Shown here: piece after piece, positions 5,155 to 63,947 of the stretch
How the letters are laid out: each line of letters starts with the position of its first letter
How positions within the stretch are numbered: position 1 is the first letter of the stretch
Source: Brachyspira pilosicoli P43/6/78
GTDB lineage: Bacteria > Spirochaetota > Brachyspiria > Brachyspirales > Brachyspiraceae
NCBI RefSeq assembly: GCF_000325665.1
Contig: NC_019908.1
Location: 1,116,001 to 1,180,000 of the forward strand
Direction: 5' to 3'
DNA: 64,000 nucleotides
Notes under the pieces: generated by a model
What the model was told of the DNA's origin: nothing
Seen by the model: only the letters and a program-made list of their open reading frames with translations
The model's database searches: none
Position numbers and translations under genes: made by a program

Positions 5155-5229
5155 TATACAGTGAAAATTTTTATATTTTAATTATTTGATGGGGCTAGTC
5201 TTCTCAAATACTAAAAAACTTATTAATTT

Positions 5230-5500
5230 TATTGTTCTTTTTCCCGCATTACGCGGTGCGGACTTCGTCAAAAGAACCAAAAAATGCAAATGTTTTAACT
5301 TCGTATGATTAGAACATATATTATAAATGCAGTGCCAATCCTGAATTTAAGTTAAAAATACAGTACTTTTACTTCTTTGGGTCACGCCTTACCTAAAGGT
5401 ACTTCCTACGGTCGCCGGCACTCCCTACGGTAGCAAAAGAAGTAGGGGTGCTACCCTACGGGCACGCTTCGCAGGGGGCAAAGCCCTGCAAATAATAAAA
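5230..5500 (+). repeat. Family A structured intergenic element, copy A1 (full length)
   Basis: It occupies the convergent gap between recN and the nitroreductase (5155-5552). Module P: GTTCTTTT (5234-5241) pairs with AAAAGAAC (5270-5277), enclosing a CCGC/GCGG hairpin (5244-5247 with 5253-5256) and the mini-hairpin GACTTCGTC. Module Q: TACTTCTTT (5370-5378) pairs with AAAGAAGTA (5436-5444); a GGGGTG linker and further GC-rich sequence follow, then GCAGGG/CCCTGC (5471-5476 with 5484-5489), ending AAATAAT. The same helices recur with changed but still paired bases at 29295, 39381 and 56131. No ORF is evident. Confidence 0.75.
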
Positions 5501-5552
5501 ATAAATAAAGTTAAAAATTTTTAGTATATACCTAAATAAGACTTATACAAAA

Positions 5553-15826: not shown

Positions 15827-15874
15827 ACTACACTACACTACACTACACTACACTACACTACACTACACTACACT
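15827..15874. repeat. Pentanucleotide tandem repeat (CACTA), about 9.6 units
   Basis: A perfect 5-bp repeat covering 48 bp, with eight complete CACTA units at 15831-15870 plus partial units on both sides. It lies between two candidate promoters, 213 bp upstream of the lipoprotein start codon. Repeats of this type change copy number by polymerase slippage; a non-coding position makes expression tuning more likely than ORF switching. Confidence 0.92.
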
Positions 15875-15913
15875 CTAATTCTATAACCAAAAACACATCA
15901 TCATTAAATTTTT

Positions 15914-29294: not shown

Positions 29295-29505
29295 AAGTTT
29301 TTCCTGCAGTTACACTCTATGAACTTAGTCAAAGAACCAAAAAGTGCGAATGTTTTAATTTTACACATTAGTAAATATAAATAAATAAATAAATATAAGA
29401 TATTTTTATCCATACATAAAAAGTATATTTCATTAAATACAGTTCTTTTGGTTCTTTTATACCAATAAAAGAACTGGGGGAGTGGGGGTAAAGCCCCCAC
29501 AAATA
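29295..29505 (+). repeat. Family A structured intergenic element, copy A2 (short form)
   Basis: It fills the gap between the rnfG terminator and the next lipoprotein gene. Module P is decayed (TTTTTCCTGC ... GTCAAAGAACC), so its outer helix is partly lost. Module Q is intact: AGTTCTTTT (29441-29449) pairs with AAAAGAACT (29467-29475), a GGGGGA linker follows, then GTGGGGG (29482-29488) pairs with CCCCCAC (29494-29500), ending AAATAAAA. The GC-rich insert seen in copies A1 and A4 is absent. Confidence 0.7.
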
Positions 29506-29623
29506 AAAAACTTAAAAATATTTTTTAATAAATTTAAAAATTTTTAGTACATACATAATAAATATTAATAATTAAAATATATCTGTATATTGACTAAAAA
29601 AATATATATCTTATATTATTTAT

Positions 29624-30211: not shown

Positions 30212-32613
30212 TTGCCGTATTTAGCACCGCCTTTTATTAAATAATCTACTGTGTTGGTATATCCTTTTTCATTTGCTAAATCTAATGGAGTTTTTCCTTC
30301 ATTATTTTTTGTATTTATACTTAAAAATGTATTATATAAATAAAAGCTTATAGCATTATTATTTCCATAGCTTGCTGCAATATGAAGCACACTGTCGCCA
30401 TTAGAATTTTTAAAATTATATATAGAAGGGTATTTTTGTAATATTTTATTTATAAGAGCATAATCTCCAAAAGCAGAAGCATAAAATATTCCATTATATC
30501 CTTTTGAATCTTCAAGATATATATCAGCATTATTATCCATAAGCATAGAAACTATATTAATATTTCCTTTAAATATAGCATATTCTAAAGGGGTTGTTTT
30601 ATCAAATACCAATTCTCCGCTAAAATTAATACCTTTTTTAGAATAGTAATTAGTATAATTGTCTAATGTTTTATTTATATCAATTTTATTTGTATAGCTT
30701 AAAAGTATATTAAGAGCATTTGTTTTATCATAATGAATAGCATAAAGAAGTGGAGTAAAGCCTTCCGGATTTCTTGTATTAAGATCAACTGTATTAGAGA
30801 TAGCATTATGTATTAAAGCCGCGTCATCTTTATATATTGCATCAAAAAGAATTTTACTTTCTAATTGATGAGCATATTCATTATTTTCTTCTTCTTTTTT
30901 ATAATAAGAAGTATCATCATCAGGCATATTATCATACAAAAAATCTTCTACAATATTATTTGCTTGAATGACGTTTAAATTATTATTATTATTATTATTA
31001 TTATATGAATTCGTATCATAAATATTAGTTTCACCAAAATTACCCATTATATTTTCTATACTATCTCCATATAATAAGTCTGAAGCAGTTTTACCATCAT
31101 AATTTTTTATAGTATAATCAGCTCCCTTTAATAATAAAAATCTATAAGTATTACTATTATTGTTTTTTACAGCCAAATGCAAAGGAGTATCTCCATCAAC
31201 ATTTTGTATATTTATGTTAATAGGAGTTCTATTCATAAGTGCAATTAAAGCATTAGTGTTTCCAAGTGATGATGCATTATGTAAAGGGGTGTTGCCGTAT
31301 ATATCTACAACCCTATAAGAATTACTGCTATAATTTAAAATTGTATCAATAACTTCTGCACTTGAAAATCTAGCAGCATACATTAAAGCATTATCTCCTA
31401 AACTATCTTTTCTGTTTATATCCGCACCATAATATAAAAGTGTGTTTATTATATTAGTGTTATTTTTAAATATGGCATACTGTAAAGGGCTAACATCACC
31501 CAAATATACATTTCCAGTAAACTCTACCCTACTTTCATCAAAATAAACTTCATCAGCTGGTATATAAGAAGTTTCTATATTTATAATATTTGTATTATTA
31601 ACTCTATATTTAAGAAGTTCATTAACCATATCATATTTATCAAGGGCTATAGCATAAGTGAGAGGAGTTTCATAAGACATAATAATAGAGTTCATATTAA
31701 AGTTAGAATACATCATTATATCTCTTAATGCATTAGTATCTGAAGTTTGAATAACTCTTGCAATAAACATGTTTTCATTGTAAGTGTTTGTATTATTATC
31801 TTCTTTGTTTTCTAAGTCAATAGCAGAACTTCCTCCTGATAATATATATTCTGGAGTAACTCCATAATTATCACCTATATCTTTATTAGCACCAAGTTTA
31901 ATAAGAAGATTATACGCATCATTTTTTGCATAGTAAGCGGCATAATATAAAGCAGTACATCCGTTTGAATCTCTGTCATTAATATTCATATCAACATTTT
32001 TAATTAAGAAATTAATAGTATTCAAATTATTAAAAGCAGCAGCATAATGAAGTCCATTAAGATTACCGTTAGGAGTTTTATCATTAACTAATGTTTTATC
32101 TTTTTGAAGAAGCATTCTTATAATATTACCGTCTCCAAAACCGCATGCATATAAAAATGCAGAGTTTCCTTCATTATCTCTAGCTTTAACATTAGCTCCC
32201 TTGTCTATAAGCTGTTTAACTATCCTTGAATTGTTTTTAAATATAGCAAACATTAAAGGAGTAGCCCCTCCTATATTAACGCTATCTCCTTCATATTTAT
32301 TTATATCAGGATAAGCAGCAAAATCATCAGAAAGTCTGTATTCAATATTAACATCACTATATTCAAGAAGCACCCTCAAAGCTCTTTCATTGTTGCATTC
32401 AATAGCATATAAAAGCGGTGTTAATCCCATTTCATTTGTAGCAGAAAAATCTACCCTATATTTTAAAATCTCTCTCAAATCCCTTTCATTTTTCTTTTCT
32501 TTTATAGCCAAAAATAATTCGCTTTCTTTTTGATTTATAGCATATATATTTAAAGAGAAAACATAAAATATAGCTAATACAATGATTAAACTTCTTTTTA
32601 TTAAACAAACCAT
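30205..32613 (-). CDS. Exported ankyrin-repeat protein (large)
   Basis: 802 aa. I start at ATG 32613, which gives a clean signal peptide (KRSLIIVLAIFYVFSLNIYA|INQ) and has AGAGG upstream. The rest is a long run of ankyrin repeats: G.TPL.YAI....ERALRVLL, GATPLMFAIFKNNSRIVKQL, DGDTPLHLAVKNNNSNTYRF and many more, in three blocks separated by linkers. The Asn-rich linker at about 550 carries eight consecutive Asn. Ankyrin arrays bind proteins; the partner is unknown. It is last in a minus-strand row tyrS-lptD-ank-ank. Confidence 0.88.
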   Translation of the reverse strand: MVCLIKRSLIIVLAIFYVFSLNIYAINQKESELFLAIKEKKNERDLREILKYRVDFSATNEMGLTPLLYAIECNNERALRVLLEYSDVNIEYRLSDDFAAYPDINKYEGDSVNIGGATPLMFAIFKNNSRIVKQLIDKGANVKARDNEGNSAFLYACGFGDGNIIRMLLQKDKTLVNDKTPNGNLNGLHYAAAFNNLNTINFLIKNVDMNINDRDSNGCTALYYAAYYAKNDAYNLLIKLGANKDIGDNYGVTPEYILSGGSSAIDLENKEDNNTNTYNENMFIARVIQTSDTNALRDIMMYSNFNMNSIIMSYETPLTYAIALDKYDMVNELLKYRVNNTNIINIETSYIPADEVYFDESRVEFTGNVYLGDVSPLQYAIFKNNTNIINTLLYYGADINRKDSLGDNALMYAARFSSAEVIDTILNYSSNSYRVVDIYGNTPLHNASSLGNTNALIALMNRTPININIQNVDGDTPLHLAVKNNNSNTYRFLLLKGADYTIKNYDGKTASDLLYGDSIENIMGNFGETNIYDTNSYNNNNNNNNLNVIQANNIVEDFLYDNMPDDDTSYYKKEEENNEYAHQLESKILFDAIYKDDAALIHNAISNTVDLNTRNPEGFTPLLYAIHYDKTNALNILLSYTNKIDINKTLDNYTNYYSKKGINFSGELVFDKTTPLEYAIFKGNINIVSMLMDNNADIYLEDSKGYNGIFYASAFGDYALINKILQKYPSIYNFKNSNGDSVLHIAASYGNNNAISFYLYNTFLSINTKNNEGKTPLDLANEKGYTNTVDYLIKGGAKYGNQ
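30979..31003. repeat. Trinucleotide repeat (ATT)8 inside the ankyrin gene
   Basis: On the coding strand this is eight AAT codons (eight Asn). Because the unit is three bases, copy-number change only lengthens or shortens the linker and does not shift frame. Confidence 0.9.
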
Positions 32614-32700
32614 TAAATAAAACCTCTCGAGATTAGTTAATATTATAAACATTTATAATATTATATAGTAATAAATAATTATAACAATATATTATGATAA

Positions 32701-34056
32701 CTAATTATTAAAGAATATATCATCAGGCTTTAAGCCTTCATTATTAGCAATCTCTCTGTCAGCACCAAGCTCTATAAGTAAATTGTAAGCCTCAGCCTTG
32801 TTATTAGCAGCAGCATAATAAAGAGCAGTCCAACCATCATTATCCTTAGCATTAATATCAACATGAAGCCTTTTTACTAAATAACTAATTACTTTTATAT
32901 TATCATAAACAACAGCCATATGTAAAGCAGTAACATTTTTTTTAGTTTTGCTATTAATTAAATTCTCATTTTTATCTACTAAACTATTCATTATACGAAC
33001 ATTGCCAAAAGCAGCCGCATACAAAAAACTATTCCACCCCTCTTCATCATAAGTGTTAATATTAGCATTTTTTTTAATAAGCCTATTTACTATCCTACTG
33101 TCTCCATTGCTTTTAAATATTGCATAAAGTAAAGGAGTAGCACCGCCTATATAAACAGCCTCTCTGCTAAAATTATCTAATGCCGTATAATATCCGTTTG
33201 GAAGAGTTGCTTCTAAATTAATATTATCGCAGTCAAGTAAAACATCAACCGCTTTTATATTTTTATTTCTTATAGCAAAATGTAAAGCACTAAGTCCATA
33301 ACCATCTTCAGCATTAATATTAGCACCATTTTCTATACTCTTTTTCAACTTTTTTATATCATTATCTCTTATAGCCTCAAATAATTCCCTATCAATATCA
33401 CTTAATTCATTATACTTCATCATCACAAGCTCTCTAAGCCTAGTAGAAGGATACATACCATTATTGTCTGTAATCTGACTATTTGCCCCCAATTTTATAA
33501 GAAGCCTGTATGATTCAATGCTTTGAGAATTAGCAGCATGATAAAGAGCAGTCCAACCGTCAATGTCTCGAGAATTAATATCAATATTAAAATTAGTGCA
33601 TATATATTCTATAACCTCATAATTATTATGACTGCTTGCTATATGAAGTATATTAACTCTAAACTCTGTTTCACTATTAACTAAACTTGGAGATTTTTCT
33701 GATATCAATTTTAAAGTATCAATATCAGAAAAAGCAGCAGCATACATAATACTATTATAGTTTTTATCATCTTTATCTTTTAAATATGAAGTATCTATAT
33801 TATCTATAAATAATTTAATAATATCTTTTTTATCATTATAAATAGCATAAAGTAAAGGAGTAGCCCCCTCTAAATTGTTTTCATAATCTTTAGGAAGCCT
33901 TGATTTTAAGCTTTGTATATCATTTTCTAATACATATTTTATATAGTTAATATCATTATCTTCAATGGCATTAAATATTTTATTTACATAATTATCATAA
34001 GCATGCAAATTAGAAAATATTATAATAATAAATAAAATAAATATTTTTTTAATCAT
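32701..34056 (-). CDS. Exported ankyrin-repeat protein (small)
   Basis: 451 aa. Signal peptide MIKKIFILFIIIIFSNLHA|YDN. The mature protein is two sets of ankyrin repeats, each opening with an 'L.....I..AI.DND...K' unit and containing GATPLLYAI, GWTALYHAAN/GWTALYYAAANN and ELGAD/KLGAN. It looks like a shorter paralogue of the next gene. It starts 15 nt after lptD ends. No enzymatic domain is visible. A periplasmic or secreted protein-binding role is inferred from the signal peptide. Confidence 0.88.
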   Translation of the reverse strand: MIKKIFILFIIIIFSNLHAYDNYVNKIFNAIEDNDINYIKYVLENDIQSLKSRLPKDYENNLEGATPLLYAIYNDKKDIIKLFIDNIDTSYLKDKDDKNYNSIMYAAAFSDIDTLKLISEKSPSLVNSETEFRVNILHIASSHNNYEVIEYICTNFNIDINSRDIDGWTALYHAANSQSIESYRLLIKLGANSQITDNNGMYPSTRLRELVMMKYNELSDIDRELFEAIRDNDIKKLKKSIENGANINAEDGYGLSALHFAIRNKNIKAVDVLLDCDNINLEATLPNGYYTALDNFSREAVYIGGATPLLYAIFKSNGDSRIVNRLIKKNANINTYDEEGWNSFLYAAAFGNVRIMNSLVDKNENLINSKTKKNVTALHMAVVYDNIKVISYLVKRLHVDINAKDNDGWTALYYAAANNKAEAYNLLIELGADREIANNEGLKPDDIFFNN

Positions 34057-39380: not shown

Positions 39381-39575
39381 CAAATGCAGTCTTTTTGCTT
39401 CTTTTGGTCACAAAAAGAACTGGGGGTGTGGTGGGCAAAGCCACCACAAATAATAAATTTTAAAATTTAATTTTAGCATGTATTTAAACAGCTATATTTT
39501 GTAATGTAAGTTTTTATTTTATTCAACTTTTTCCCGCCTTCGCGGTGCGGACTTCGTCAAAGTTGCAAAAAGTGC
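39381..39575 (+). repeat. Family A structured intergenic element, copy A3 (modules in reverse order)
   Basis: It lies in the convergent gap (39286-39682) before mutL. Module Q comes first: CTTTTTG (39391-39397) with CAAAAAG (39411-39417), GGGGG linker, then GTGGTGG (39428-39434) with CCACCAC (39441-39447), ending AAATAAT. Module P follows: CAACTTT (39524-39530) with AAAGTTG (39559-39565), enclosing CCGC/GCGG and GACTTCGTC. In module P the outer helix differs completely from copy A1 but remains paired. Confidence 0.72.
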
Positions 39576-39682
39576 AAGTTAAGAGAATAATACTAACTAT
39601 ATTTTACATGAGTAATATTAAACTAAAAACAATATAAATATTCATTAATTCGCTTTTAAAATATATATAATAACTGAATCAT

Positions 39683-42144: not shown

Positions 42145-45100
42145 TTATCTGTCATCTAATGTAATTAGCACTTCTCTTGGCTTAGAGCCGTTTTCAGGCC
42201 CTACAATACCCTGACGCTCCATAATCTCTACTATTCTAGCAGCACGGTTATAACCTATTTTTAAACGTCTTTGTAAGAATGATGCACTAGCCTTGCCTGT
42301 TCTAGCAACAAGTTCAACAGCATCTTCCCAAAGCTCTTCGTCTAATATATCCTCTTCATCAGTGTTTTTGTCATCATCGCTTCCCTCTAATGCCGCAATC
42401 AAGCTCTCATCAAACATAGGAGACATCTCTCCAGATAAATAATCAACCACCTTCTTAACTTCATTATCAGAAACAAAAGCACCCTGAACCCTCTCAGGCA
42501 TCTGGCTTCCAGAAGAACAGAATAAAGCATCTCCCTTACCCAATAACTGCTCGGCACCAGACATATCTATTATAATACGTGAGTTTGTTTTGTTAGGTAC
42601 TTGGAATGCAATTCTAGTAGGTAAATTAGCCTTTATAACACCAGTAACAACATCTGCAGAAGGTCTTTGTGTGGCAATTATTAAGTGTATACCAACAGCC
42701 CTACTCATACCAGCCAAACGTGATATTAAATCCTCAACCTCTTTTGATGCAACAACCATCAAATTGTGAAGCTCATCTATCACTAAAACTATATATGGGA
42801 ACAACTCTAAAGGCTCTCCGTTAAACTCTGTCTCTCCCTCTTTAAGAAGCTGTTTTACTTTTTCGTTGTAAGTCTTAACATTTCTAACGAAGAATCTCTC
42901 CATTCTTTCGTATCTTTTCTCCATTATGTCTACAATATATCTCAACACTATAGTAGCCTTCTTCTCATCAGAAACAACAGGAGACATTAAATGCGGTATG
43001 CCGTTATATATAGAAAGCTCAACTCTCTTTTTATCTACAAATATAAACTTAAGCTCATCAGGTCTAAACTTGTAATAAAAGCGAAAGTATTATTGTAGAT
43101 AAACAAACACTTTTACCAGAACCAGTAGTACCAGCAACAAGCAAGTGAGGAGCTTCAGACATATCTGATACAACATTGTTTCCATATATTCCTTTTCCAA
43201 GTACAAATGGTATATCAAGCTTTGATTGTCTGAAATCGCTGCTTTCTAATACATCTCTTAAAAATACAGCATTTCTCACTTTGTTTGGTATCTCTATACC
43301 TATAACAGAGCGACCTGGTATTGGTGCTATTATTCTCACACTCTCTGAAGCAAGTGCTAAAGCAATATTGTCCGTTAAGTTTGATATTTTTGACACTCTA
43401 GTACCTGCCGCTAATTCAAGCTCATATCTTGTAATAACAGGTCCTCTTGATACTCCTGTAACTTTAGCTTCTATATTAAAATCAAGCAATGTATTTTCTA
43501 ATTGTATTGCTGTTTGTTTTATAGATTCAAGCATTGCATTATCATTTACAGGAATTGATCTATTAAGCAAATCAAATGGAGGAGCTTTATAATGTTTATC
43601 TACATACTTGCTGTCAAAGTTTGATTGTATTAAGTCAAAATCATTTTTATGATTTTTATATAGTATTGGCTTTTGAGGCTCCTTTAATGTGTTTACTTTT
43701 TTTTCTGATTCTATATTTATAAAACCGCTATTAGTTTCATTATCATTTTTTATATCTTCTATAGAGTTTAATTTTTCAGCATATTTCTGAAGTTCTTTTT
43801 CAACATCATATTCTTCTTCATTATTGCTTGTATTATCATAATATTTAGAATCATTTGAAAAATTATGAAGCTCTCTCAAATCATCTTTTATTTTTACATC
43901 TTCTATATCATTATAAGATTTATCAACATTGTAAAGCTCTTCTTCGTCCAAATCAAAACAATTTAATATACTATCATCATCAATAATATTATTGTTATTG
44001 TAATTTGGTATATGGTCTTCTCTTCTATAAGCTCTCTTTGAAGCATAACCCATAGGAAACTCAAAGTGACTGCTCTTATTAGTTGTTGTTTCTGAATAAT
44101 TTAACTGTTCTTTGTTATTGCTTCCTCTTTTTATTTTGCCATGCTCTCTGTCATACATTTCTTTTAATTGTTTATTTTCATTAGCAACTCTTCTTAGTTT
44201 ATCTAATATATTTTCTTTATTATCAGTTTTAAAAGAGCTATTAGTTTTATATAAGGCATCAGTATCATTAAAATCATCAATAGGCTGATTTATAGTATTT
44301 TCTTTTTTTAGAGTTTTTTCTTTATACTCTTTATATAATTTATCTAAATCTTCAATATATTCTATTTTGTTATTTTCTATTTTCTCATCATTATTATTTA
44401 ACTCTTTAAACTTTCTCTCTCTGTTTTTATATATATTTTCAAGTATCACACTCTCATCATAATCGCTATTTATACTATTTTTAGCTCTCAAAAAATTTTC
44501 TGTTGTATCATAATAATTAATATTACCTTCGTAAGCAGCCTTTTTAAAATCTGACTTTTTGGCTCTATTAATGCTAAAATCCCAATCAATATTTTCTATT
44601 GCCTCATGAACATTTTTATTATATTCATCATCATATTGTTTTAATTCATTATATTGATTGAAAGCATCTTCTTTTTTTTTTATATCAGTTTTTATATTAT
44701 TTCCAAATGCAGCCTCAAATAAAGAATTGCCCATATCCTCTTCTCTATCTTCTATTGCATTAACATTAATCCTTCCATAATTATCTCTTTTCAAATTATT
44801 TAAACTCTCAACCATATAATCTAATTCTTTATTCTTAGCATCATCAAAATCATTTCTCTTATTAAAAAAGTCGTCCATTAGATTATCATTTATATTTTCA
44901 TTTTTATTATATTTTCTCTCAGATGAATTATAATGATTGAAAGATATTTTTTCTATAAATGGAGTATTGCTAAACTCAAAATCAGATACTTCTTTTTTAC
45001 TAAATATAGGCAAGTAATCCATAGAAGAACTTTTTTTATTATTTTCTTTTTTATAATTTTTTTCATTTCCTTCTTCTTTCATTTCATCTCTTTTCATTTC

Positions 45101-45736
45101 TTCTTTTTTAGTTTTTATAGTATCAGATATTTTTCTCTCAACATCTTTTAAATCTATTTTTTTTACCATATCTTTGCAATAATTAACTAAATCAAGCAGT
45201 GAAACTTTAGCAAATACTATTATAGTAATAAGAAGTATAGCAGAAGTTATTATTACAGCACCAATATTTCCAAATAATGAAGCAAGAGAGCCTCCTATAA
45301 CCTCTCCCATCATTCCGCCTTTATAATAAAAAGCCTTATCTCCAAGTAATATATCAAGAAGTATGCTAGACAACATCATCACAAATGATAAAAGAAGAGC
45401 AAACATCAAAATATTTTTAACAGAATTTTTTAATATAATATTTACTCCAGCATATATAAAAAATGCAGGTATTACAAAAGAAGAAACACCAAAAGCAGAA
45501 AATGAATACTCAGCAATATAAGCACCAAACTTACCAAGTAAATTATTTGTTGCAAGAGAAGTATTCATCTCTCCTATATTAGCACTCAAATATGATAAAA
45601 TTAATATACCAGCAAAAAGTATGCATAAAAAACCAATAATATCATATATAGGGTTTCTATTTTTATCATCATATGATTGATAAACATTTTTACTCTCAGC
45701 TCTTTTTTGTATGTTTAATTTTCTTTTAGTAAACAT
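42145..45736 (-). pseudogene. ftsK: DNA translocase FtsK/SpoIIIE, reading frame broken by one extra base
   Basis: Restored length 1196 aa. About residues 30-190: four membrane helices. Residues about 200-720: long Asn/Asp/Glu/Lys-rich linker. Then the motor: YELELAAGTRVSKISNL, Walker A VAGTTGSGKSVCL, Walker B IVLVIDELHNLM, RPSADVVTGVIKANLPTRIAF, and a C-terminal winged-helix gamma domain that reads KOPS-type sites (SASFLQRRLKIGYNRAARI). The frame breaks just after Walker A: the region 43071-43080 carries one extra A/T pair, and removing it joins SLLYKFRPDELK. FtsK is normally essential for division. Confidence 0.9.
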
Positions 45737-56130: not shown

Positions 56131-56455
56131 TTGCGGTGGCTAGCCCCCCCCCCCTGCGAAGCGTGCCCTTAGGGTACGCACCCCCACTTCTTTTGCGACT
56201 GAAGGAAGTGCCGGCGACCAAAGGGAGTCCTTCAGGGCGACCGTAGGAAGTACCTTTAGGTAAGGCGTGACCCAAAGAAGCAAAAAGGCTGCATTTAATG
56301 AAGTATAGCTTTTGATGTATATACAGAATATAGACATTATTTTATATATCCCAAAATATAAAGCTAAAACATTTGCACTTTCGCGAAGCGTATCTGAAGG
56401 ATATAAGGTTCTTTGACGAAGTACGCACCGCGTAAGGCGGGAAAAAGAACAATAA
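56131..56455 (-). repeat. Family A structured intergenic element, copy A4 (inverted, full length)
   Basis: It fills the convergent gap between crr and the ntrC-type gene, in minus orientation. Module P: GTTCTTT (56408-56414) and AAAGAAC (56444-56450), around CCGC/GCGG. Module Q outer helix: CTTCTTT (56187-56193) and AAAGAAG (56274-56280). The inner GC-rich insert is nearly the same as in copy A1 (TTACCTAAAGGTACTTCC). The end that carries hairpin II is disrupted by an 11-C run (56144-56154). Confidence 0.72.
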
Positions 56456-60422: not shown

Positions 60423-60619
60423 ACCGCACAGTCAATTAAGCAAAATATTTTATTCTATTTATAAAACAATTTTAATTATATTTTTAATCAAGCTCAACGT
60501 GCGAAGTGAAAACCTAAAAAACTAATAATAACTAGGGCGGGTGTGCTTATTTTAAGAAAACAATAAAACTAATGAAATTCATATTATTAGTTTTAAGCAA
60601 TAAATCTTATAGGGCGGGG
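60423..60619 (+). repeat. Family B intergenic element, copy B2
   Basis: ACCGCACA at 60423 and CGTGCG at about 60499 bound a core of about 82 bp; GGGCGGG follows at 60535-60541 and AGGGCGGGG at 60611-60619. Order and spacing match B1 and B4. It is immediately followed by a terminator stem, and both are shared with the 62 kb copy. Confidence 0.68.
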
Positions 60620-60637
60620 TACGTAAATAATTTTAAA

Positions 60638-60673
60638 AAAGAGAGACTCTTGAGTATACAAAAGCCTCTCTTT
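60638..60673 (-). terminator. Terminator of the flavoprotein gene (minus strand)
   Basis: AAAGAGAG (60638-60645) pairs with CTCTCTTT (60666-60673) just past the stop of the minus-strand gene at 60680. On that strand it ends in T-rich sequence. It is almost the same as the one at 62098. Confidence 0.75.
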
Positions 60674-60679
60674 AATTTT

Positions 60680-61237
60680 TTATAATATAGATTTTCCCAT
60701 TTCAAATGCTTTATTTAATAATTCTTTTTTATCTTTAATATCCCCAACATTAAACACTCCTCCAGCTATCAAATACCCTAAATCTTTCCATCCAAGATAA
60801 TTTAGTAAGTAATGATAATATTCTATAACAGGTTTAGAATTATTTTCATCATTTCCCTCTGCTGCCATAAGCATAAAACACTCTTTATACGGAGTCTTAT
60901 AATTTGGGTCTATTTCTGTAACAGCAAATAATCTGTCTATAGCTATTTTTAACTGAGCAGAAAAAGCCCAATAATACATAGGTGAAGCTAAAACGAGTAT
61001 ATCTGCTTCTTTATAATATGGGTATATTTTTAACATATCGTCTTTTTGAGAACAAGGGCTATCTGGATTTTTACCTCCTCTCAAACAGCCCTTACAGCAA
61101 TGTATATCCATTCTGTCTAAATCAAATCTAATTACATCATTTCCATTAAGTTTCGCACCTTTTGTAAATTCTTCTATTAAAGAAAAAGTGTTGCCGTTTA
61201 ATCTTGGGCTGCCATTTAAAATTAATATTTTTTTCAT
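60680..61237 (-). CDS. Flavodoxin-fold NAD(P)H-dependent oxidoreductase
   Basis: 185 aa of the iron-sulfur flavoprotein/NADPH-FMN reductase group: ILNGSPRLNGNTFSLIEEF (FMN phosphate loop) and VLASPMYYWAFSAQLKIAIDR. A Cys-rich stretch (HCCKGCLRGGKNPDSPCSQ) resembles the compact cysteine motif of iron-sulfur flavoproteins. Divergent from an HxlR regulator (121-bp gap), a common pairing in which HxlR controls the reductase in response to electrophiles or oxidation. Substrate unknown. Confidence 0.85.
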   Translation of the reverse strand: MKKILILNGSPRLNGNTFSLIEEFTKGAKLNGNDVIRFDLDRMDIHCCKGCLRGGKNPDSPCSQKDDMLKIYPYYKEADILVLASPMYYWAFSAQLKIAIDRLFAVTEIDPNYKTPYKECFMLMAAEGNDENNSKPVIEYYHYLLNYLGWKDLGYLIAGGVFNVGDIKDKKELLNKAFEMGKSIL

Positions 61238-61691: not shown

Positions 61692-62154
61692 TATTATTAA
61701 AATTTTGTACAAATAAAGTTTAAAATAAAATAAATAAAAGTTGTTGTGTTTTAAAATTTAATTTACATACCCCTCCCTATAGATTTTCTGCATTCACTCT
61801 AATTTTTGCGTCATTTTTCTTTTTTGCTTTAAATTCTAATTTCTGCCCCCACCCAAGATTTTTTTAAATTTGATGCGTTATCTGCCGCACGGTAGGCTAA
61901 GTAACAATATTTAATCGTATTAAAAAAAGAATTTTAACTAAGTTTATAAATAAGCTCAGCGTGCGGAATTAAAACTTAAAAAAATAATAATAACTAGGGC
62001 GGGTGTGCTTCTTTTAAAACAATAAAATTAATGAAAGTTAGATTTTGCAGTTGAAAACAAAAAACTTATAGGGCGGGGTGCGTAAATAATTTTAAAAAAA
62101 GAGAGACTCTTGACTATTCAAAAGGCTCTCTTTAATTTATTAGTTTATAATATA
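61692..62154. repeat. Intergenic region with family B element in double-arm form (B3 and B4)
   Basis: This 460-bp gap holds two B arms on opposite strands around one core. Left arm, inverted: CCCCTCCCT (61770-61778) and CCCACCC (61848-61854). Core: CCGCACG (61885-61891) to CGTGCGG (61960-61966). Right arm: GGGCGGG (61997-62003) and AGGGCGGGG (62070-62078). The box-to-box distance is about 76 bp on the left and 73 bp on the right. A terminator stem follows at 62098. I see no ORF. Confidence 0.7.
62098..62133 (-). terminator. Terminator of oppA (minus strand)
   Basis: AAAGAGAG (62098-62105) pairs with CTCTCTTT (62126-62133), 22 nt past the oppA stop. Nearly identical to the terminator at 60638. 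Confidence 0.75.
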
Positions 62155-63768: not shown

Positions 63769-63872
63769 AATAATAAAAAGACTCCTATATTTTTTATGTT
63801 TGATGATTTTATAATGATTTATAGTAAATATCAATATTTTTTCATATCAATTTATCTAGTATTTAATTGAGT

Positions 63873-63947
63873 GAAAAATAATTATATGAAAAATAATTAT
63901 ATGAAAAATAATTATATGAAAAATAATTATATGAAAAATAATTATAT
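63873..63947. repeat. 15-bp tandem repeat, five perfect copies
   Basis: The unit GAAAAATAATTATAT occurs five times without error, 105-180 bp upstream of the oppA start codon. Fifteen base pairs is a multiple of three. In forward frame it reads MKNNY repeated, but there is no ribosome site and I do not call it a gene. Confidence 0.92.

Follow-up and report, generated by a model that had tools for sequence, protein, structure and literature searches.

Four copies of a two-module repeat, whose modules are called P and Q here, occur in a 64,000-nucleotide stretch of the chromosome of the gut spirochaete Brachyspira pilosicoli P43/6/78 (genome G000, positions 1116001-1180000 of C1; hereafter "the window"). 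Since the arms of their stems differ from copy to copy and nevertheless remain complementary, the question arises as to whether the repeat is a structured RNA preserved by selection on base pairing or a DNA element in which the arms are kept matched by some other means. The analysis presented below suggests that it is probably a non-coding, non-autonomous, MITE-like mosaic mobile repeat specific to Brachyspira, and not a conserved regulatory RNA.

Organization, abundance, and distribution of the P/Q repeat

The four copies (A1 to A4) were all identified by direct reading of the window, with both modules and the stems quoted in the original prediction. Three corrections apply: A4 lies on the minus strand, A3 has the order Q-P, and A2 has lost its outer P stem, in that AAGTTTTT, the 5' arm, fails to pair with AAAGAACC, a point which the original prediction had passed over. 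In A1 (plus strand), the P hairpin (5234-5277) carries the GTTC allele and a loop cassette of the alpha type (5252-5269), and is followed by an AT-rich core (5292-5355), module Q (5356-5493), and an end motif, TTAAAAATTTTTAGTATATA (5511-5530). Module Q of this copy consists of hairpin I (5370-5444), which includes two beta-type cassettes (5401-5414 and 5420-5433), and hairpin II (5471-5489), with a gamma cassette at 5452-5474; an additional palindrome resembling hairpin II lies to the left of P (5185-5208), and a hairpin II is present at the matched place in the sister genomes G013 and G016. A2 (plus strand) shows a P module with a decayed outer stem (29295-29351), a cassette-free Q module (29435-29504; hairpin I 29441-29475, hairpin II 29482-29500), and the end motif TTAAAAATTTTTAGTACATA (29534-29553). 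In A3 (plus strand), Q (39382-39451; hairpin II 39428-39447) is separated by a linker (39452-39521) carrying a second end-type motif (39477-39505) from P (39522-39579), which has the CAAC allele and an alpha cassette in its loop. In A4 (minus strand), Q (56140-56296) includes a gamma cassette (56154-56176), and three beta-type cassettes lie in its hairpin I (56187-56280); the AT-rich core (56297-56381) is separated by another gamma cassette (56382-56406) from the P hairpin (56408-56450), which is of the GTTC type.

Covariance models, derived from 17 sequences of P and 15 of Q, were used to scan the genome. Many further copies exist: at least 107 of P and at least 120 of Q were detected in this chromosome, which has a length of 2,555,556 bp and a G+C content of 27.9% (PMC3587939), and these counts are lower bounds, since scoring was limited to 150 candidates and the models missed long variants. 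Further copies that the models missed were found around other sites of the gamma marker ACGCTTCGC. Another form of the repeat, longer and strongly conserved, escaped the Q model: in it, P is opened (CCCGCGTACGAGCTGTACCACCTTGCC) and two gamma cassettes lie about 108 nt apart in opposite orientations; four copies of it (L362, L028, L363, and L364) are located at positions 1004500-1004750, 1634650-1634900, 1808600-1808800, and 2052200-2052400 of the chromosome, respectively.

The modules form arrays having the same orientation throughout, with 42-123 nt between P and the next Q (177 nt in one case) and 12-148 nt between Q and the next P (256 nt in one case). Read as its reverse complement, Q resembles P, which makes the P-core-Q unit itself an inverted pair. 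The G+C content of the modules amounts to 46%, as compared with 28% in the window, and similar cassettes occur at three or more distinct positions across P and Q. Only one of the 140 clusters overlaps an ORF (>110 aa), and the others are intergenic: convergent gene neighbors were found at 63 clusters and divergent ones at 16 (p = 9e-8). An outward-facing, promoter-like TTGACA-N17-TATATA sequence lies 3' of Q in 25 cases and ahead of P in 8; it may correspond to the end of the element rather than to a promoter. A role as an intrinsic terminator (a GC stem followed by a T-run) was rejected, since at A2 and A4, the two sites scanned, the terminator-like stem is separate from the element and stands between it and the upstream gene. 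The orientation of the repeats shows no clear flip of the kind expected in the case of a replication-linked bias.

The scan of Brachyspira genomes proposed with the original prediction detected Q in 23 of the 26 genomes, the closest relatives carrying about 150 copies; no match was found in the other three (G001, G003, and G019). Among 149 Spirochaetota genomes, matches were confined to Brachyspira, and three genomes of the same family belonging to other genera had none. A scan of 84,980 genomes with an exact pattern gave 119 Brachyspira matches among the 120 listed; a Domibacillus match was surrounded by no P/Q sequence, and a phage origin was discarded because neither of two viral matches to the Q pattern was accompanied by P/Q sequence. 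The original prediction knew of no named Brachyspira element of this kind, and it was right in this respect: no mention of the repeat was found in the searchable Brachyspira genome papers. The P/Q repeat is an undescribed, genus-specific family occurring in most Brachyspira species, and it could be used in strain typing.

Cassette turnover and transposon-like carriers in sister species

Ten modules were matched between genomes by their flanking sequences, and nine of them differ by cassettes, in most cases because a cassette of 20-45 nt has been gained or lost exactly within a hairpin. At the sites at positions 2529063, 2272340, 15196, 1155382, and 1155522, these exact differences occur between flanks which are 96-100% identical. 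The cleanest case is that at 2529063 (flanks 100% and 97% identical): two differences, a loop cassette that ends in CTTCCTTCGGTCG and the presence or absence of TACCCTACGGGCACGCTTCGCAG at hairpin II, distinguish otherwise identical Q modules. In A3, the flanks, linker, and core are nearly identical to those of G016, and the main differences are a 22-nt gamma cassette present in hairpin II of Q in G016 and the alpha cassette present in the P loop of the window genome. The P loop is cassette-free in both G012 and G016, which suggests a gain in the window genome; this is the only site at which gain and loss were polarized, on the basis of these three genomes and without an outgroup tree. A different kind of change was observed at positions 388275 and 2456616, where both arms of the stem were replaced together with the loop, which is the pattern expected if the whole hairpin of another repeat was copied.

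Whole elements also come and go. They are absent from the matched site in G013 (15196 and 1522451) and in G016 (2391926), and contig C2 of G016 has an additional element of the P/Q type at a place that is empty in the window (32590-32697, chromosomal positions 1148590-1148697), so that presence and absence run both ways. In the intergenic regions of A1, A2, and A4, the sister species carry other copies, which are often inverted; these differences in orientation and content are not explained by simple insertion, and they count against the mobile-repeat reading.

In Brachyspira hampsonii 30446, Brachyspira innocens ATCC 29796, Brachyspira sp. G79, and metagenome bins, the double hairpin of Q was found inside elements of about 204-375 bp. 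These carriers start with AGACTTGTTTCAAAACT and finish with its reverse complement, which gives 17-bp terminal inverted repeats. When up to three mismatches per end were allowed, 21 pairs of such ends were found 204-375 bp apart, and no larger pair was found within 4 kb in the loci fetched, nor was any autonomous element bearing such ends seen, which counts against the mobile-repeat reading. Identical 3-bp flanks, mostly AAT/ATT, are present in 16 of 19 carriers (0 of 20000 shuffles). Two B. hampsonii copies located on different scaffolds (L226 and L232) differ by two bases and by one exact 20-nt loop insert. Judged from sequence data, these sister species show the marks by which a transposed MITE is recognized, namely terminal inverted repeats, a 3-bp duplication, and copies that are nearly identical although their loci are unrelated; the ANT-like 3-bp duplication is, we presume, reminiscent of the IS5/ISL2 group. 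In B. pilosicoli, where perfect inverted repeats and a target duplication were not demonstrated, ends of the sister type are rare or decayed, a minority of the copies show imperfect TATATAC...TTGTCAA ends instead, and the empty matched sites in the sister genomes are too diverged for any duplication to be read around the copies.

Several candidates for the mobilizing enzyme were rejected. The RAYT domain (Y1_Tnp, PF01797) was detected in none of the 26 Brachyspira genomes, although the positive controls were detected; a reverse transcriptase (RVT_1) was present in seven of the 26, two of which lack the repeat; and a DDE_Tnp_1 transposase was present in four and absent from B. pilosicoli P43/6/78. 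The distribution of neither of the last two follows that of the repeat. An ORF with a reverse-transcriptase domain (544-aa frame) lies at positions 44828-45409 of the B. pilosicoli chromosome.

Pairing in the stems and its possible causes

In agreement with the original prediction, paired changes across copies far exceed those in shuffled and slid controls. In the outer stem of P, 94.0% of the cells are paired, as against 78.7% after shuffling (0/500) and at most 68.8% after sliding, and two-sided changes occur in 92 cells instead of 48.9 in the shuffled alignments; in Q, the corresponding values are 93.3% versus 85.1% in the control and 107 cells versus 38.2. The two modules do not carry the same weight. 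The outer stem of P shows essentially two haplotypes: 36 copies have GTTC/GAACC, 38 have CAAC/GTTGC or GTTTT, and five are mixed. Its covariation therefore corresponds to few independent compensatory events, whereas hairpin II of Q, where five of the six pairs show two-sided changes, is multi-allelic and provides stronger evidence of pairing. The arms of hairpin I are almost invariant, and selection on pairing is thus also possible. A k-mer comparison of the upstream flanks of the two P alleles gave only a slight difference, and an attC-like integron site was rejected because the AAC/GTT outer bases are present in one allele only. The claim that such covariation implies selection on pairing holds in part: pairing is indeed maintained across copies, but the conclusion was too simple, given that arms and loop can be replaced as one block.

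The original prediction had left the choice between a structured RNA and a DNA hairpin, and it is the latter which fits the data better. That the repeats might be 3' UTR or small-RNA hairpins, selected as RNA for the stabilization or processing of mRNA ends, for instance, is suggested by the excess of paired changes, by their location at the 3' ends of genes, and by the UNCG type of many loops on the plus strand of the element (CCTTCGG, CCTACGG). However, a TNCG loop on the plus strand is a GNA loop on the minus strand, and loop type cannot separate RNA from DNA. Selection on RNA from either strand should favor one of the two mismatches G-T and A-C over the other, yet G-T (29) is no commoner than A-C (35) among the 3,490 cells of four alignments, some of the mismatches in hairpin II being perhaps alignment errors, and the absence of any wobble excess points to pairing at the DNA level or to copying of whole hairpins. 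The single-strand RNA folding of A1 is not unusual (z -1.6 and -1.4), and Rfam gave no match for the elements, its only match in the window being a tRNA. Taken with the terminator-like stems preceding the element at A2 and A4, the variation of loop content and orientation between sister species at one and the same site, and the MITE context in these species, these data make a structured RNA improbable, and the stems are better accounted for by pairing at the DNA level or by an exchange of entire hairpins. Could the matched arms be a mutational artefact, due to the hairpin mispairing with itself during replication and correcting one arm on the other, without any selection or mobility? The paired changes are indeed of the transversion type (GC to CG, TA to AT) with few intermediates, but this process would leave the copy number, the MITE ends, the 3-bp duplications, and the exact cassettes unexplained, and as it is weakened by the MITE evidence, we regard it as highly improbable.

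Other explanations turn on the location and mobility of the copies. DNA hairpins of the REP/BIME type, serving for the binding of gyrase, IHF, or the nucleoid or for the relief of supercoiling between convergent genes, would likewise be extragenic, present in more than 100 copies, and enriched between convergent genes; such a function is nonetheless very improbable, as close species differ in the copies that they carry, Q is without a match in three Brachyspira genomes, and the RAYT gene is lacking throughout the genus sample. A further explanation, which is a variant of the mobile-repeat reading and compatible with a MITE carrier, is that the cassettes are independent mobile units inserting precisely into the loops instead of being exchanged. 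The exact presence or absence of 20-24 nt in near-identical copies and the recurrence of similar cassettes at several positions of P and Q are consistent with this idea, but no target duplication was seen around the cassettes, and every ACGCTTCGC site read out falls inside P/Q elements, which means that exchange among copies suffices; independent insertion is therefore unlikely. It is conceivable, albeit doubtful, that the GC-rich cassettes of about 20-24 nt form a distinct class of bacterial mobile DNA, entering and leaving the loops of carrier hairpins precisely and moving between MITE backbones under the guidance of conserved carrier arms.

Proposed mechanism and comparison with known systems

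According to the mobile MITE-like reading, the working parts of the element would be its AT-rich ends and one or two GC-rich DNA hairpins. The complete transposon form, with the Q hairpins in the middle of the element, is present in the sequences of B. hampsonii and B. innocens, where, at least in this lineage, whole elements may have been moved by a transposase acting in trans; in B. pilosicoli, this hairpin module is found on other AT-rich ends and has multiplied into head-to-tail P-Q arrays between convergent genes, where insertion does little harm. Within the hairpins, cassettes that are rich in GC and about 20-45 nt long appear or disappear as exact units, and they do so at fixed positions in the loops and at the stem bases. 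We suggest that the short common arms (TTCTTT/AAAGAA) may serve as homology, and that a hairpin which becomes single-stranded during replication or repair might be copied afresh from a different repeat, either by template switching or through gene conversion. Loop cassettes, and sometimes arms and loop together, would be swapped in this way, and the arms would stay matched without any stepwise compensatory mutation.

Like MITEs, the P/Q repeat is short, non-coding, AT-rich, and present in high copy number, and in B. hampsonii and B. innocens it has the 17-bp terminal inverted repeats and 3-bp duplication; it differs from them in its nested GC-rich hairpins, the loops of which vary by exact cassettes, and in the imperfect inverted repeats of B. 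pilosicoli. The pneumococcal BOX element, with its boxA-boxB(n)-boxC structure, is also a modular intergenic hairpin repeat with an excess of convergent genes and no clear transposase of its own (PMC3049150), but the likeness is one of architecture only; boxB varies in tandem number at one place, whereas P/Q takes different cassettes in several loops and stem bases. REP/BIME/REPIN sequences associated with RAYT (TnpA-REP) share with it the extragenic palindromes in more than 100 copies and the paired inverted units, although the P/Q loops are longer and modular and no RAYT gene accompanies them. The neisserial NIME/Correia elements, from a different organism, are likewise mosaics, in which repeated units are arrayed between genes together with inverted repeats (described in PMC3049150). 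We know of no cassette-loop structure in NIME/Correia elements.

Exact turnover of loop cassettes is better known from the GC clusters of yeast mitochondria than from bacteria. These clusters (GC42, for example) are small palindromes, rich in GC, that lie within an AT-rich genome; relatives differ in their presence, and their units are merged and shuffled (PMC4478555); they are mitochondrial, however, and neither a cassette-taking host hairpin with conserved arms nor a MITE carrier is described for them in the part of this source that was available. A 20-nt loop cassette which is exactly present or absent in near-identical copies provides a clean natural assay of palindrome rewriting in a bacterial chromosome. 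In addition, covariation across repeat copies can arise from the copying of whole hairpins, which constitutes a trap for searches based on RNA structure.

Other repeats were observed in the window. A second family, with a GGGCGGGG segment and a hairpin starting with AGAGAGACTCTTG, occurs at 2227-2346, 60444-60689, and 61906-62149; its copy near 61.9 kb contains a CCGCACGG...CGTGCGG palindrome which is also found in the long P variants at chromosomal positions 1004500 and 1808600. Units of 51-71 nt are repeated within two large ORFs at 30446-33862, which, from their appearance, we take to be ankyrin-like repeat proteins. Lastly, tandem repeats of ACTAC (5 nt) and of TAATTATATGAAAAA (15 nt) at 15827-15879 and 63864-63947, respectively, are possible length-variable sites.
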